A stretch of DNA of 64,000 nt. Origin: Rhodobacter maris (GTDB taxonomy: Bacteria > Pseudomonadota > Alphaproteobacteria > Rhodobacterales > Rhodobacteraceae). Position 1 is the stretch's first letter, and the number at the start of each line of letters is the position of its first letter. The translations under genes and the position numbers were made by a program. A model generated the notes under the pieces. The model was not told the origin of the DNA. It saw only the letters and a list, made by a program, of their open reading frames with translations, and did no database searches. Positions 46,396 through 52,183 of the stretch are shown here, piece after piece. Where the stretch lies: NCBI RefSeq assembly GCF_900217815.1, contig NZ_OBMT01000008.1:1-64000 (forward strand). The letters run 5' to 3'.

Positions 46396-46671
46396 TCATG
46401 CGCAGCCCCCCGGGAAGATCCATTGCCCCTCCCTGAAATTGTCTTCCGGCCCGGAGGCCACGGCGCCGCGGCAGAGCGCCTGCGCCGCGCGTTTCGCTTC
46501 CGCCCCCTCGTCATAGCTGAAGGGGGGGGCATTCCGGCGCACCCGCAGTTCGTTCTGCGGACCAAAGCTGCCCGTATAGCCCGCCACGGCGGCAAGCGGG
46601 CCCACCGCATCGGAACCCACGGGCGGGCTGGCGCAGGCCGCGAGCGGCAGGATCAAGAGGGCAGCGCGCAT
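46396..46671 (-). CDS. Small lipoprotein of unknown function, nuo operon
   Basis: A 91-residue protein starting [17 protein letters not shown], a short signal with lipobox LAAC (Cys13). The mature part contains [36 protein letters not shown], and ends in GGCA. The start codon overlaps the stop of the upstream 154-aa gene by one base (TGATG), so the two are translationally coupled. nuoG follows after 64 nt. Family not recognised. Confidence 0.72.
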
Positions 46672-47135
46672 CAGTTGCCCCTCCGCGTTTCGATCGCCGG
46701 GCAGAATGCCTCGATCCGGTAGAAATGCGGCGCCATCTCGGCCACGTCGCTTGCCTTCAGGCCAAGCCCCTTCGCCGAGGGGCAGACCGCCTCGATCGCC
46801 GAGATCACGCCTTTTTTCAGCTCCAGCGCATCGGTCTCTGTCACCCCTTCGAGCGTCACTTCAAAATAGGCGGTAAACCCGTCCCAGTAGAGGCAGCCCG
46901 CGTTGCCGACCGCACCTTCGGGACATTCCACGCCACCGGTCATGATGTCGTTGAAATAGGCCACGACCGCCCCGGACGCACCTTCCATCATCCGGATATG
47001 GCGCGAAAGCGCGGGGACATACCCCTCATGGACGAGGCTGTTGGCCTGCGGTTCGGCAAAAGCCGGCACAAGCCCGAACGCCAGCGCCGCGGCGCCGCCC
47101 CCGATCTTGCCAATGCTGCCCGAAACCGCTGCCAT
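46671..47135 (-). CDS. Secreted protein of unknown function, nuo operon
   Basis: A 154-residue protein with a signal-like N-terminus (GGGAAALAFGLVPAFA, cleavage likely before EPQAN). The mature part has four cysteines (VECPEG, NAGCLYW, EAVCPS, EAFCPA), which suggests two disulfides in the periplasm. It lies 6 nt after nuoF and is coupled to the next small lipoprotein. I do not recognise the family. Confidence 0.75.
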   Translation of the reverse strand: MAAVSGSIGKIGGGAAALAFGLVPAFAEPQANSLVHEGYVPALSRHIRMMEGASGAVVAYFNDIMTGGVECPEGAVGNAGCLYWDGFTAYFEVTLEGVTETDALELKKGVISAIEAVCPSAKGLGLKASDVAEMAPHFYRIEAFCPAIETRRGN

Positions 47136-47141
47136 CTCAGC

Positions 47142-48437
47142 TCACTCCGCCGCCATCGCGCCCATGCGCCCGCTCTTGCGCGCCTTGATCCGGTCTTCGA
47201 TCTCCTCGCGGTAATGCCGGATCAACCCCTGGATCGGCCAGGCCGCGGCATCGCCCAAGGCGCAGATCGTGTGGCCCTCGACCTGTTTCGTCACGTCAAA
47301 GAGCATGTCGATTTCTTCGATCTCGGCCTCGCCCCGCACGAGACGGTCCATCACCCGCATCATCCACGAGGTGCCCTCGCGGCAGGGTGTGCATTGGCCG
47401 CAGCTCTCGTGCTTGAAGAATTTGGAAAGCCGCCAGATCGCCTTGATCACATCGGTCTGCTGATCCATCACGATCAGGCAGGCGGTGCCGAAGCTCGATT
47501 TCAGCTCCCGCATGCCGTCGTAATCCATGATCGCATCCTCGCACAGATGTGCGGGAAGCACCGGGCAGCTTGCGCCACCGGGGATCACCGCCTTCAGGTT
47601 GGACCAGCCGCCGCGCACGCCGCCGCCATGTTTCTCGATCAGTTCCTTCATCGAGATCGACATGCTCTCCTCGATCACGCAGGGCGTGTTCACATGCCCC
47701 GACATGGCGAAGAGCTTGACGCCGGTGTTGTTCGGCCGTCCGAAGGAGGCATACCAATCCGCGCCGCGGCGCAGGATCGTGGGGACGACGGCAATCGACT
47801 CGACGTTGTTCACCGTGGTCGGGCAGCCATAAAGCCCCGAGCCCGCCGGGAACGGCGGTTTCATCCGCGGCATGCCCTTCTTGCCTTCGAGGCTCTCGAG
47901 CAGCGCCGTTTCCTCGCCACAGATATAGGCGCCCGCGCCGTGATGCAGATAAACGTTGAAATCATAGCCCGACTTGCAGGCGTTCTTGCCGATCAGCCCG
48001 GCGTCGTAGCATTCGTCGATGGCGCGTTGCAGCGCTTCCTTTTCACGCACATATTCGCCGCGAATGTAGATATAGGCCGCGCAGGCGCCCATCGCGAAGC
48101 CCGCGATCAATGCGCCTTCAATCAGCGTATGCGGATCGTGGCGCATCACCTCGCGGTCCTTGCAGGTGCCGGGTTCGGATTCATCGGCGTTGATCACCAG
48201 ATAGGCGGGCCGTCCGTCCGATTGCTTGGGCATGAAGGACCATTTCAGCCCGGTCGGGAAGCCAGCGCCGCCGCGGCCGCGCAGACCCGAGGCCTTGACC
48301 TGCTCGATGATCCAGTCCCGGCCATTGGCAAGGAGGGCCGCGGTCCCATCCCAGTGCCCACGCGCCATCGCGCCCTTCAGCGAGCGGTCGTGCATCCCGT
48401 AGATATTGGTGAAGATCCGGTCCTGATCTTTCAGCAT
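47142..48437 (-). CDS. nuoF: NADH-quinone oxidoreductase subunit F
   Basis: A 431-residue flavoprotein that binds NADH and FMN and one 4Fe-4S cluster. Visible: [18 protein letters not shown] (NADH/FMN loop), [20 protein letters not shown], and the cluster ligands [10 protein letters not shown]. Start at ATG 48437 ([11 protein letters not shown]). It is preceded by a dense set of hairpins. Confidence 0.97.
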
Positions 48438-48619: not shown

Positions 48620-49306
48620 TCAGTGCTTGCGGCCGCGCCGCTTCCCCCCTCCGCCCGGAGCGGGTTTGGGCGCAACCGGTGCCGTGGGGGCCGCGCCGAC
48701 CGTCTCGACCGGCTTCGCTTCCGCAGGTTTGGCGGCAGCGACGGGGGCGGCAGGCGCAGCGGGCTTGGCCGCGGGCGTCACCGGTTTCGGAACCGATGTC
48801 GCCGCGACCGGCGCAGCCGACGCAGGTTTTGCCGCGCTCGGCGCGGGGGCAGGTTCCAGTTTCGGCGCCGGTGCTGGGGCCGGGGCCGGTTTTGCGGCCA
48901 TCGGAGCCGGAGCGGCCATGGCCTTCGGCGCGGGCGCCGGAGCAGGCTTCGCCGCCGGGGTGGGGGCGGGCTGCGGCGTTGGCGCGGGTTTCACCGCGGC
49001 GCTCGGCGCAGCCACCGGCTTCGCGGCGGCCGGAGAAGCCGCTGGTTTCGCGGCGACGGGCGGGGCCGCCGGGGTGGCCGTGCGCAATGCGCGCGCCTCC
49101 TCGGGGCTGAGAACTTTCGGTTCGGGCAAACAGCCCATCACATAGCAGGCGGTGCGTGCCAGGATCAGTGCGGAAACCACACCGGCCACAAGGGCAACAC
49201 CGATTCCGGTCGAGCCGAGCAGCCACAGCGCAAAAAACGCAACGGCTCCGAGGATTGCTCCCAATTTGCGGGCTTTCGTCTGGCATTCAGCGTCGTTCAT
49301 CGACAT
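48620..49306 (-). CDS. Membrane protein with Ala/Pro/Lys-rich tail, nuo operon
   Basis: A 228-residue protein: a short N-terminus, two hydrophobic stretches (about 17-31 and 34-50), then from about residue 78 a low-complexity tail built from AKPAA/APAP/PAPAP phrases ending in a basic KRRGRKH. The start at ATG 49306 follows AAAGGAAAGG. It lies between nuoE and nuoF. No catalytic motif is visible. The tail resembles linker regions that span the periplasm or bind other proteins; its role with complex I is unknown. Confidence 0.75.
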   Translation of the reverse strand: MSMNDAECQTKARKLGAILGAVAFFALWLLGSTGIGVALVAGVVSALILARTACYVMGCLPEPKVLSPEEARALRTATPAAPPVAAKPAASPAAAKPVAAPSAAVKPAPTPQPAPTPAAKPAPAPAPKAMAAPAPMAAKPAPAPAPAPKLEPAPAPSAAKPASAAPVAATSVPKPVTPAAKPAAPAAPVAAAKPAEAKPVETVGAAPTAPVAPKPAPGGGGKRRGRKH

Positions 49307-49415
49307 TTTGCCTTTCCTTTCCCTCATTCCGGACCGGGAGGGCGCTCCTCACGCCGACCCCGGCCCGATGTGTTGATCTGATTGTCTCAGTCTGTCGTCA
49401 GTCCGGTCTTTCCAC

Positions 49416-50900
49416 TCAGTAATCGTTGGTCCTTGCCCGTTCGCGGAAGCGCGCGAGCCCCTCCGCGACGATAATCTTCGCCTGCGCCACCCATTTGTCA
49501 CGGCTGACGCGGCCGCGGAACCCTTTCAGGTTCGTGTCCATCCAGGCCACTTCCTCGGCCCCCCATTGCGCGATCTGGTCAAAATGGAACACGCCCAGAT
49601 CGTGGCAGATCCGCTCAAGAACCGGGCCGATCCCCTCGATCTGCTTCAAATCATCGGCCATGCCGCCCCGCGGCGCATCAAGACCCTGCGGCGGCACCCC
49701 TTCGCCCGCCTCAACCTCGACCATCACCGGGCCTTTGGCTTTGCGCGCGGGCGCGAAAGCCGGTTCGGAAGGCATCTCCGGTTCGGGCGTCTCGGGGGCA
49801 GGCTCAGGCTCCAGCGCTGTGCCGGTCTGCGCGGCCACCATCGCCTTGCTGATCGCTTCAGCCTCGGCCGCTTCGGCGGCGGCTTTCTCGGCAAAGGCTT
49901 TTTCCGCAGCCGCTTTTTCCGCCGCAGCCTGCTCGGCTGCCGCCTTTTCCGCCGCGGCTTTTTCAGCGGCGCGCTGCTCGGCTTGCGCCTTTTCTGCCGC
50001 AGCAAGCTCAGCAGCGGCTTTCTCGGCCGCCGCTTTTTCGGCCGCGGCTTTCTCCGCCGCCGCTTTCTCCGCTGCGGCTTTTTCGGACGCGGCTTTTTCC
50101 GCCGCCGCTTTTTCTGCCGCAGCCTTTTCCGCGGCGCGTTGCGCGGCCGTCATTGGACGGGTGCCCATCATGCCGATCGGGCCGAGCCGCCCGCCGGATT
50201 GCCAGGGCGCGCTGAGCGGCACTTCACTGCCGTCGATGCGCTTGATCCCGTCACCAAAGGCGAGCGCGCGCGCAACCGAGCCGTTCGCCGCTTCCTTCTC
50301 GCCCGCGGTTTCTGCGCAGGAGGTGAGGCCCGCCGCCGGTTCCGACGAGAACCGCCCCGCTTGCGAGCCCGGTCGCGGCGCCTGGCCTGTGGCGAGCGCG
50401 TCGATCAGGGTCTCGAGGTTTTCCTCGGTCAGATCCTCGAAATAATCCTTGCCGATCTGTGCCATCGGCGCATTGGCGCAGGCACCAAGGCATTCGACCT
50501 CTTCCCAGGAGAACTTGCCATCCGCCGAAAGCGCGAAGGGCTCCGCGGCGATCTTGCGTTTGCAAACCGCAATCAGGTCTTCGGCGCCGCAGATCATGCA
50601 CGAGGTGGTGCCGCAGACCTGAATATGCGCGACCGAGCCCACCGGGGCGAGCTGGAACATGAAGTAGAAGGTCGCCACTTCCAGCGCGCGGATATAGGGC
50701 AGGCCCAGCATATCGGCGACATGTTCGATCGCGGGTTTCGTCAGCCAGCCTTCCTGTTCTTGTGCCCGGAACAGGAGCGGAATGATTGCCGAGGCCTGGC
50801 GACCCTCGGGGTATTTCGTCATCTGCGCTTCGGCCCAGGCGCGGTTCGCGGGCGTGAAGGCGAAAGACGCGGGTTGTTCATGATGCAAGCGGCGCAGCAT
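49416..50900 (-). CDS. nuoE: NADH-quinone oxidoreductase subunit E with long repeat and HhH-like extension
   Basis: A 494-residue protein, about three times the size of E. coli NuoE (166). Residues 1-170 are a normal NuoE with the [2Fe-2S] ligands Cys96, Cys101, Cys137 and Cys141. A variable linker follows (171-252). Residues 256-342 are about seventeen near-perfect AAEKA pentapeptides, predicted to form one long charged helix. After a Pro/Glu-rich spacer (360-410), residues 415-485 form a helix-hairpin-helix-like domain ([20 protein letters not shown], then [10 protein letters not shown]). Start overlaps the nuoD stop (TAATG). Confidence 0.95.
49872..50135 (-). repeat. In-frame 15-bp tandem repeat array in nuoE
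   Basis: Encodes residues 256-342 of NuoE, about seventeen copies of Ala-Ala-Glu-Lys-Ala. The DNA units vary at third positions (gcc/gca/gcg, ttt/ctt partners), so the array is not a fresh slippage product and has been held at protein level. It occurs once in the window. Confidence 0.85.
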
Positions 50901-52141
50901 TAGCGGTCGACCTCCCCGAACACGATATCCATCGTGCCGATGATGGCCGAAACGTCGGCCAGTTGGTGCCCTTTCGAAACCGCATCCATCGAATGCAGAT
51001 GCGCATAGCCCGGGGCGCGGATCTTGGCCCGGTAGGGCTTGTTGGTGCCATCGGAGACGAGATAGACGCCGAACTCGCCCTTGGGCGCCTCGACGGCGGC
51101 ATAAACCTCGCCCGCGGGCACCTTGAAGCCCTCGGTATAGAGCTTGAAGTGGTGGATCAGCGCTTCCATCGAGGTCTTCATCTCGCCCCGCTTCGGCGGC
51201 GTCATCTTGCCGCGCGCGAGAATATCCCCCTGCCCTTCGGGCGCGCGGAGCTTTTCCACCGCCTGGAGGATGATCTTGGTCGACTCGCGCATCTCGGCCA
51301 TCCGCACAAGATACCGATCATAGCAGTCGCCGTTCTTGCCCACGGCCACTTTGAAATCAAATTCGTCGTAGCATTCATAGGGTTGCGAGCGCCGCAGATC
51401 CCACGCCAGACCCGAGCCGCGCACCATCACCCCGGAATAGCCCCATTGGGTGATTTCTTTCTCGGTGATGATGCAGATATCGGCATTGCGCTGCTTGAAG
51501 ATCCGGTTTTCGGTCAGCAGCCCCTCGATGTCATCGAGCTTTTGCGGGAATTCATGCGCCCAGGCCTCAATGTCGTCGATCAAGGCGGGGGGCAGATCCT
51601 GATGCACCCCCCCGGGACGGAAATAGTTCGCGTGCAGACGCGCGCCGCAAGCCCGTTCGTAGAAGATCATCAGCTTCTCGCGTTCCTCAAAGCCCCAGAC
51701 CGGCGGGGTGAGCGCGCCCACGTCCATCGCCTGCGTGGTGACGTTGAGAAGGTGGTTCAGAACCCGCCCGATCTCCGAGAAGAGCACCCGAATGAGCGAG
51801 GCGCGGCGCGGCACCGGCGTGCCGGTGAGCCGCTCGATCGCCATGCACCAGGCATGCTCCTGGTTCATCGGCGCCACATAATCGAGCCGGTCGAAATAGG
51901 GCGTGTTCTGCAGATAGGTGCGGCTTTCCATCAGCTTTTCGGTGCCGCGATGCAAAAGGCCGATATGCGGGTCGGCCCGTTCGACGATCTCGCCGTCAAG
52001 CTCCAGCACCATCCGCAACACCCCGTGCGCCGCAGGGTGCTGCGGGCCGAAGTTGATGTTGAAATTGCGGATGCGCTGCTCGCCGGTCAGCACGTCATGC
52101 GAACCGTCGTCGTAGGTATTCTGCCGGATGTCGCCGTCCAT
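50900..52141 (-). CDS. nuoD: NADH-quinone oxidoreductase subunit D
   Basis: A 413-residue subunit at the quinone-binding site, related to hydrogenase large subunits. Recognised by [42 protein letters not shown] and the C-terminal [14 protein letters not shown]. Start placed at ATG 52141; an in-frame GTG three codons earlier, with GGAGAAAG before it, is equally possible. Confidence 0.97.
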
Positions 52142-52183
52142 GCTCCTCACCTTTCTCCGTCACCGCCCGGGCGTTGCCGCGGC

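Follow-up and report, generated by a model that had tools for sequence, protein, structure and literature searches.

The nuo operon in the window (the whole stretch of 64,000 nucleotides of Rhodobacter maris DNA analysed here) raises the question of what a complex I subunit, NuoE, does with a long C-terminal extension that ends in a compact domain. An earlier note on this DNA had read the gene as NuoE joined to a helical arm and a helix-hairpin-helix (HhH)-like domain, and this anatomy is borne out by the Pfam match of the core (PF01257) and by an AlphaFold2 (AF2) model with a helix at residues 252-358 and a terminal domain at residues 406-486 (Table 1). The note had also allowed for a reading frame broken by sequencing error; the frame is open over exactly the interval that was described.

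Table 1. Extended nuoE, its parts and its neighbours in the window
Feature	Position	Strand	Basis
Extended nuoE, whole ORF	49416..50900	(-)	open frame, 494 aa
NuoE core, residues 1-235	50196..50900	(-)	aligned with 8qby_E; PF01257 at residues 24-169
Predicted continuous helix, residues 252-358	49827..50147	(-)	AF2; contains the AAEKA array, residues 256-345 (also found by TRF)
Pro/Glu-rich spacer, residues 359-405	49686..49826	(-)	AF2, mostly low confidence
Predicted PhaH-type HhH domain, residues 406-486, 'TNDY' version	49443..49685	(-)	sequence, AF2, Foldseek and tree
Protein-O homologue without HhH domain	48620..49327	(-)	hairpin-only model, E 1.3e-6
nuoF (context)	47142..48437	(-)	
nuoD (context)	50900..52150	(-)	

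As judged by Pfam, the gene lies in a nuo operon, where it adjoins nuoD and is followed on the other side by a protein-O homologue and then nuoF. Its core is the 2Fe-2S thioredoxin-like domain of NuoE (E 5e-50), and residues 1-234 align without a long gap with 8qby_E, the best PDB match to the core, which has only 239 residues and ends just beyond the aligned part. The protein scores above the cut-off of the extended-NuoE model NF009040 (567.9 bits vs 514). For the full-length AF2 model the overall pTM is 0.32, and thus no fixed placement of the terminal domain is predicted. We regard the anatomy of this NuoE, together with the homology of its domain discussed below, as practically certain. 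Further along the operon, between nuoF and nuoG, two ORFs of 154 and 91 aa (46671-47135 and 46396-46671, both on the minus strand) have signal-like N-termini by eye; neither Pfam nor NCBIfam matched them up to E 1.

About 17 AAEKA pentapeptides had been counted in the arm, and this agrees with the best pentad phase, in which 17 units match at least four of five positions, 12 of them exactly, all within a single predicted helix of 107 residues. With an alpha-helix rise of 0.15 nm per residue this helix would be ~16 nm long, which makes the earlier figure of about 13 nm a fair estimate; a long Ala/Lys/Glu helix also serves as an arm in TolA domain II, which is periplasmic and unrelated to NuoE. 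In the spacer that follows the helix, pLDDT is <50 at residues 361-363 and 371-398. Among the 17 units third codon positions differ by 61.5%, first positions by 11%, second positions by 7% and residues by 11%. The array is therefore not the product of recent slippage, given that third positions differ so much and residues only by 11%, and its codons suggest that it has been kept at the protein level while synonymous sites were randomised.

The arm was, nevertheless, found in this genome alone: an AAEKA array was detected in 1/119 domain-bearing NuoE loci, and the other tethers are variable A/P/K/E-rich stretches. Measured from residue 241 to the domain, the median tether length is 54, with extremes of 0 and 211 (119 NuoE loci); it is 165 in the window and 106 and 92 in two near relatives with Ala/Pro/Lys/Glu tethers (L022 of genome G162, and L023). 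Since the arm was found here alone, the conserved design is a domain on a variable tether and not a spacer of fixed length; a rigid arm as a conserved feature was rejected. The domain is thus the conserved part and the arm one lineage's own solution. As a separate observation, some tethers carry one short motif, in which LPG is followed by ELA and this by RKG-[STE]-W (on protein O in 22/139 genomes, on NuoE in 6 and on both in 4; e.g. L063 and L102), which is a possible second binding site common to NuoE and protein O.

The terminal domain is predicted to be all-helical, with block pLDDT values of 92-97 over residues 401-490 in the full model, and a pLDDT of 96.3 and pTM of 0.86 when modelled alone. 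In 46 aligned domain sequences G18, G20 and P21 are invariant and form a GxGP hairpin; 35 of the 46 match HHH_5 at E 0.1 or better, the window domain itself weakly (E 0.06, 14.3 bits, under the gathering score of 27). A terminal fold that is not HhH-like, the other possibility that the earlier note had kept in view, is thus not what the model suggests: the predicted structure is HhH-like, all-helical and with the GxGP hairpin that marks the HhH superfamily. The nearest PDB fold is NusA AR2, which takes the best two places in the Foldseek search, by itself (probability 0.98, E 0.12) and in an entry with SuhB (probability 0.96, E 0.23), at 22-23% identity over the aligned stretch; RadA-type HhH domains rank after it, and all these matches have E >0.1, with none at 0.001.

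With respect to sequence, none of the 119 NuoE copies and none of the 93 other nuo-locus copies departs from D11, L13, G31 or Q37, and W65 is kept in all of the former and 99% of the latter. The domain has a median pI of 5.0 on NuoE and of 5.2 on the remaining hosts; the window copy has 6.1. In the HhH region K/R is found at position 17 in 81/119 and at position 22 in 96/119 NuoE copies; the window domain has Glu and Val at these positions, and its Rhodobacter lineage Glu and Val or Ala. Compared with NuoE and protein-O copies, rather than with PhaH, the window domain has thus lost two commonly present basic residues.

The homology of this domain extends to several unrelated hosts. Each of the 46 domains hits NF045508, the model for the Caulobacter phasin PhaH, at E 0.001 or better, the window domain with E 5e-16 over model positions 169-233 of 234, and the same 46 also match the models of L21 (PRK12278), S2 (PRK12311) and extended NuoE at that threshold; in each of the four the window copy matches the C-terminal end. 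The window protein does not reach the whole-protein PhaH cut-off and is no phasin; this cut-off was passed by none of the genomes searched, only by a named Caulobacter control. PhaH shares the C-terminal HhH domain on a PHB-granule protein, and L21 of the PRK12278 type carries the homologous domain after an A/K/E-rich tether on a ribosomal protein. Extended NuoE of the NF009040/PRK12373 type is the same subunit with a C-terminal extension, where the window domain matches positions 315-391 of 400; the window protein differs in its longer tether (165 vs a median of 54), in the AAEKA helix and in having an O-type domain.

Genome counts refer to 139 family genomes and locus counts to 141 loci; genome G160 (two nuoE loci, 81% complete) was dropped from the genome counts, and of 147 family genomes with NuoE 22 were left out of the locus set. 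NuoE carries the domain in 117/139 genomes; when any ORF of the nuo locus is counted, NuoE included, the figure is 125/139. Within the genus, 13/16 genomes have it on NuoE (with G160 dropped and G161 having no NuoE match), the exceptions being G041, G154 and G157, which excludes a sequencing artefact. Of what had been expected in relatives the domain is therefore widespread, as the note's remark that the extension was not unique to the strain had implied, and the AAEKA repeat is not. A profile search at E 0.01 found one domain copy in the window's own genome and none in 11 of the 58 genomes searched, a set that by choice included the genomes whose nuo locus was at that point known to be without a copy, and that hence gives no frequency estimate; the domain is accordingly dispensable and its function non-essential.

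Across the class Alphaproteobacteria the domain was detected in 20/192 sampled genomes, including the window's own and two other family genomes. In 50 further loci (L162-L211, some overlapping with earlier loci, L163 being the window's own) the domain comes after tethers rich in A, K, E and P. By reading, its hosts there are L21, NuoE of other families, protein O and membrane proteins, so that the domain is not specific to NuoE. Ten of these loci were scanned with Pfam, which gave L21 as host in three, NuoE in one, DUF2189 in one and no host family in five; L201, phasin-like by eye, was dropped as a phasin because it had no Pfam match. Some membrane-type proteins (L169; L174/L187) carry two tandem copies. 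Moreover, in the nuoE-nuoF region two domain-bearing ORFs are present besides nuoE at L044, L046, L047, L061, L064, L097, L107, L134, L159 and L160, and at L059, L077, L086, L128, L141, L145 and L150 a membrane-type protein of ~60-90 aa precedes nuoF (by eye).

The gene next to the window's nuoE, which the earlier note does not mention, is a homologue of protein O. Protein-O was described as a new subunit in a cryo-EM study of the Dinoroseobacter shibae RC-LH1, which places its gene between nuoE and nuoF, likens its C-terminal domain to NuoE C-termini and calls the function obscure (PMC12079452), which agrees with the earlier statement that the role of arm and domain is not established. For R. 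capsulatus LH1-RC no protein-O-like subunit is mentioned in the available part of the report (PMC9932092). The C-terminal domain of D. shibae protein O (8yy9_O) is homologous to the window domain (phmmer 7.7e-29), and the window has a homologue of its N-terminal part at the corresponding place, with an N-terminal hydrophobic hairpin with Cys, a Pro/Ala-rich tail and a basic C-terminus (protein-O N-terminal model, E 5e-11; the start codon is uncertain, MSMND being likely). Protein O consists of an N-terminal hairpin and a C-terminal domain; in the window's O, unlike that of D. shibae, the domain is missing, and it is NuoE that bears it. A frameshift or a remnant of a lost domain downstream of this gene was considered and rejected, with no match in three frames.

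An O gene lies in the nuoE-nuoF stretch in 102/139 genomes, 82 of which have the domain on it. The first protein-O model contained linker columns; a hairpin-only model, which matched no NuoE, gave 99 with O and 81 with O and domain. Both NuoE and protein O carry the domain in 74/139 genomes. Using PF00124 (reaction-centre family) as marker, the NuoE domain is present in 77/85 genomes without and 40/54 with it (p 0.016), and the O gene in 57/85 (55/85 with the hairpin-only model) and 45/54, respectively (p 0.048). Protein O is thus somewhat commoner in phototrophs and the NuoE domain less common there, and a phototrophy-specific role was rejected on the numbers for genomes without PF00124. Paracoccus denitrificans DSM 413 has a short NuoE and, in its nuo locus, the domain on protein O alone; this case, together with the O counts, indicates that protein O is mainly a nuo-operon gene and not a photosynthesis gene. 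The P. denitrificans protein O (L284) matched only 8yy9_O and 9wqv_a in the PDB at E 0.1. The available part of a study of P. denitrificans complex I lists 14 core subunits, three supernumerary ones and a PIMT, with protein O not named (PMC11522691), and that of a proteomic study reports further co-purifying proteins (PMC8115037).

How NuoE in this lineage came by its domain is suggested by the relation between NuoE-borne and O-borne copies. In 75 loci with both, likeness is 0.672 among NuoE copies, 0.665 among O copies and 0.661 between NuoE and O copies of different genomes, which means that copies resemble each other equally well within and between hosts; pairs from the same genome are closer (0.706; reached in 0/10,000 permutations). 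Host labels mix on the domain tree (37 changes vs a shuffled mean of 49.9 and minimum of 40). The distance matrices of the two sets correlate only weakly (r 0.20), a point that counts against the explanation proposed below. The pair at L122 shares 99% DNA identity, also at third codon positions, which suggests a very recent conversion or duplication.

The window domain belongs to a version, which we refer to as TNDY, defined by its tail pattern (TNDY or a near variant). This version forms one clade (24/24 plus one other, support 0.96), also when the defining tail is removed (23/24 plus one other, support 0.90); L124 lies inside the clade although it lacks the tail pattern. NuoE-borne and O-borne copies are both found in the clade, and the nearest copy to the window domain outside the genus is borne by protein O (L041). 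In the 14 genomes with TNDY on NuoE an O domain was detected in none, while 74 of the 103 genomes with the other version on NuoE have one (Fisher p 1.7e-7, kinship ignored); by parsimony the state of TNDY on NuoE with no O domain changed 6 times, gains and losses together, and the 14 are thus not independent. Close to the window clade on a NuoE+NuoF tree, L026, L027, L039 and L041 have the other version on NuoE and TNDY on O, and L032, on a contig of the low-quality G160, has TNDY on both. In the window and its near relatives NuoE bears TNDY: O is present without the domain in the window, L023, L030 and L033-L035, and absent in L024, L025, L028 and L038; at L022 O is interrupted by a contig end, and a whole-genome search found the NuoE copy alone.

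On the domain tree the window domain falls in a clade that is otherwise borne by protein O. Given that the TNDY clade occurs on both hosts and that all 14 genomes lack an O domain, the simplest reading is that recombination put O's domain on NuoE, and we consider it likely that the domain moved within the nuo operon of this lineage from protein O, the next gene, to NuoE. The exchange would have taken place between two tandem domain copies in the operon, either by conversion or by deletion of the stretch between them.

What the domain does is best approached through PhaH, the one characterised homologue that we found in print. A review, on which the DNA binding rests, reports that Caulobacter PhaH binds DNA nonspecifically via its HhH domain, with PHB granules distributed along the nucleoid (PMC13052382); a literature search, with most subscription journals outside its reach, found no study of what the NuoE domain does. 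We suggest that the C-terminal 80 residues represent a portable PhaH-type HhH docking domain displayed by complex I on a long cytoplasmic tether. The domain may bind nucleic acid with low affinity and, as described for PhaH, irrespective of sequence, which is the least certain step; complex I would thereby stay close to the nucleoid or to RNA, and the AAEKA helix would merely set the reach. That the domain is a putative docking module of some kind is highly probable. On the strength of the PhaH report a nucleic-acid tether is the likeliest single candidate, and by analogy nucleic acid would be slightly favoured over protein as the ligand. As an assignment, nucleic acid is tentative, and the explanation as a whole, relocation included, is put forward with somewhat less than even confidence.

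The acidic median pI and the loss of two basic residues suggest that binding may be weak here, or that the ligand is a protein. In the latter case one shared factor would hold complex I, protein O and ribosomes through the domain, a reading to which we give a smaller, still substantial chance. D11, L13, Q37 and W65 are conserved alike on NuoE and on other hosts, this lineage lost the two basic residues of the hairpin and kept the rest, and NusA AR2, the best structural match, was retrieved also with its partner protein SuhB; yet the E-values of these matches are weak, and PhaH is reported to bind DNA. Should the domains instead pair with each other, complex I would be clustered, or else joined to protein O and through it to RC-LH1. 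The frequent presence of the domain on both neighbouring proteins, the greater likeness of same-genome copies and the occurrence of protein O in an RC-LH1 (PMC12079452) fit such clustering. The window's own genome has a single copy, so that within the reach of the profile search the domain would have no other host protein to pair with there. The P. denitrificans nuo locus, with the domain on O alone, and the wide distribution of NuoE domain and O in genomes without PF00124 are also arguments against clustering, which we consider improbable.

It is also rather improbable that the domain does little and spreads as a passenger by recombination between low-complexity linkers. Tethers of 0 to 211 residues, its absence from 11 of the 58 chosen genomes and its frequent changes of state on the tree by gain or loss (NuoE 20, O 30) would be expected of a passenger; near-invariant core residues in both hosts, and array residues kept while synonymous sites were randomised, would not. 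Returning to the docking domain that we prefer, a wider version would have one portable HhH tag on long low-complexity tethers hold very different large assemblies against the nucleoid or a common scaffold in Alphaproteobacteria, hopping between NuoE and protein O within the nuo operon as it would have done in the window's lineage. These assemblies would be complex I (via NuoE), photosynthetic or respiratory membranes (via protein O), ribosomes (via L21) and PHB granules (via PhaH); this generalisation we regard as unlikely.

That extended NuoE exists is already known from its annotation, and the likeness of its domain to protein O has been noted in print (PMC12079452). New are the common identity of the domain across hosts, its independence from phototrophy, the within-genome likeness of NuoE and O copies and the probable relocation from protein O to NuoE in this lineage; in the sources available to the literature search no statement of these points was found beyond that likeness and the PhaH report. 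One domain thus joins an obscure NuoE extension, protein O of an RC-LH1, the HhH tails of L21 and a DNA-binding phasin. Because its tether is flexible, the domain could go unseen in maps of purified complex I. Finally, in genetically tractable hosts such as Rhodobacter and Paracoccus the domain offers a way to ask whether a tether links a core respiratory complex to the nucleoid or to a common factor.
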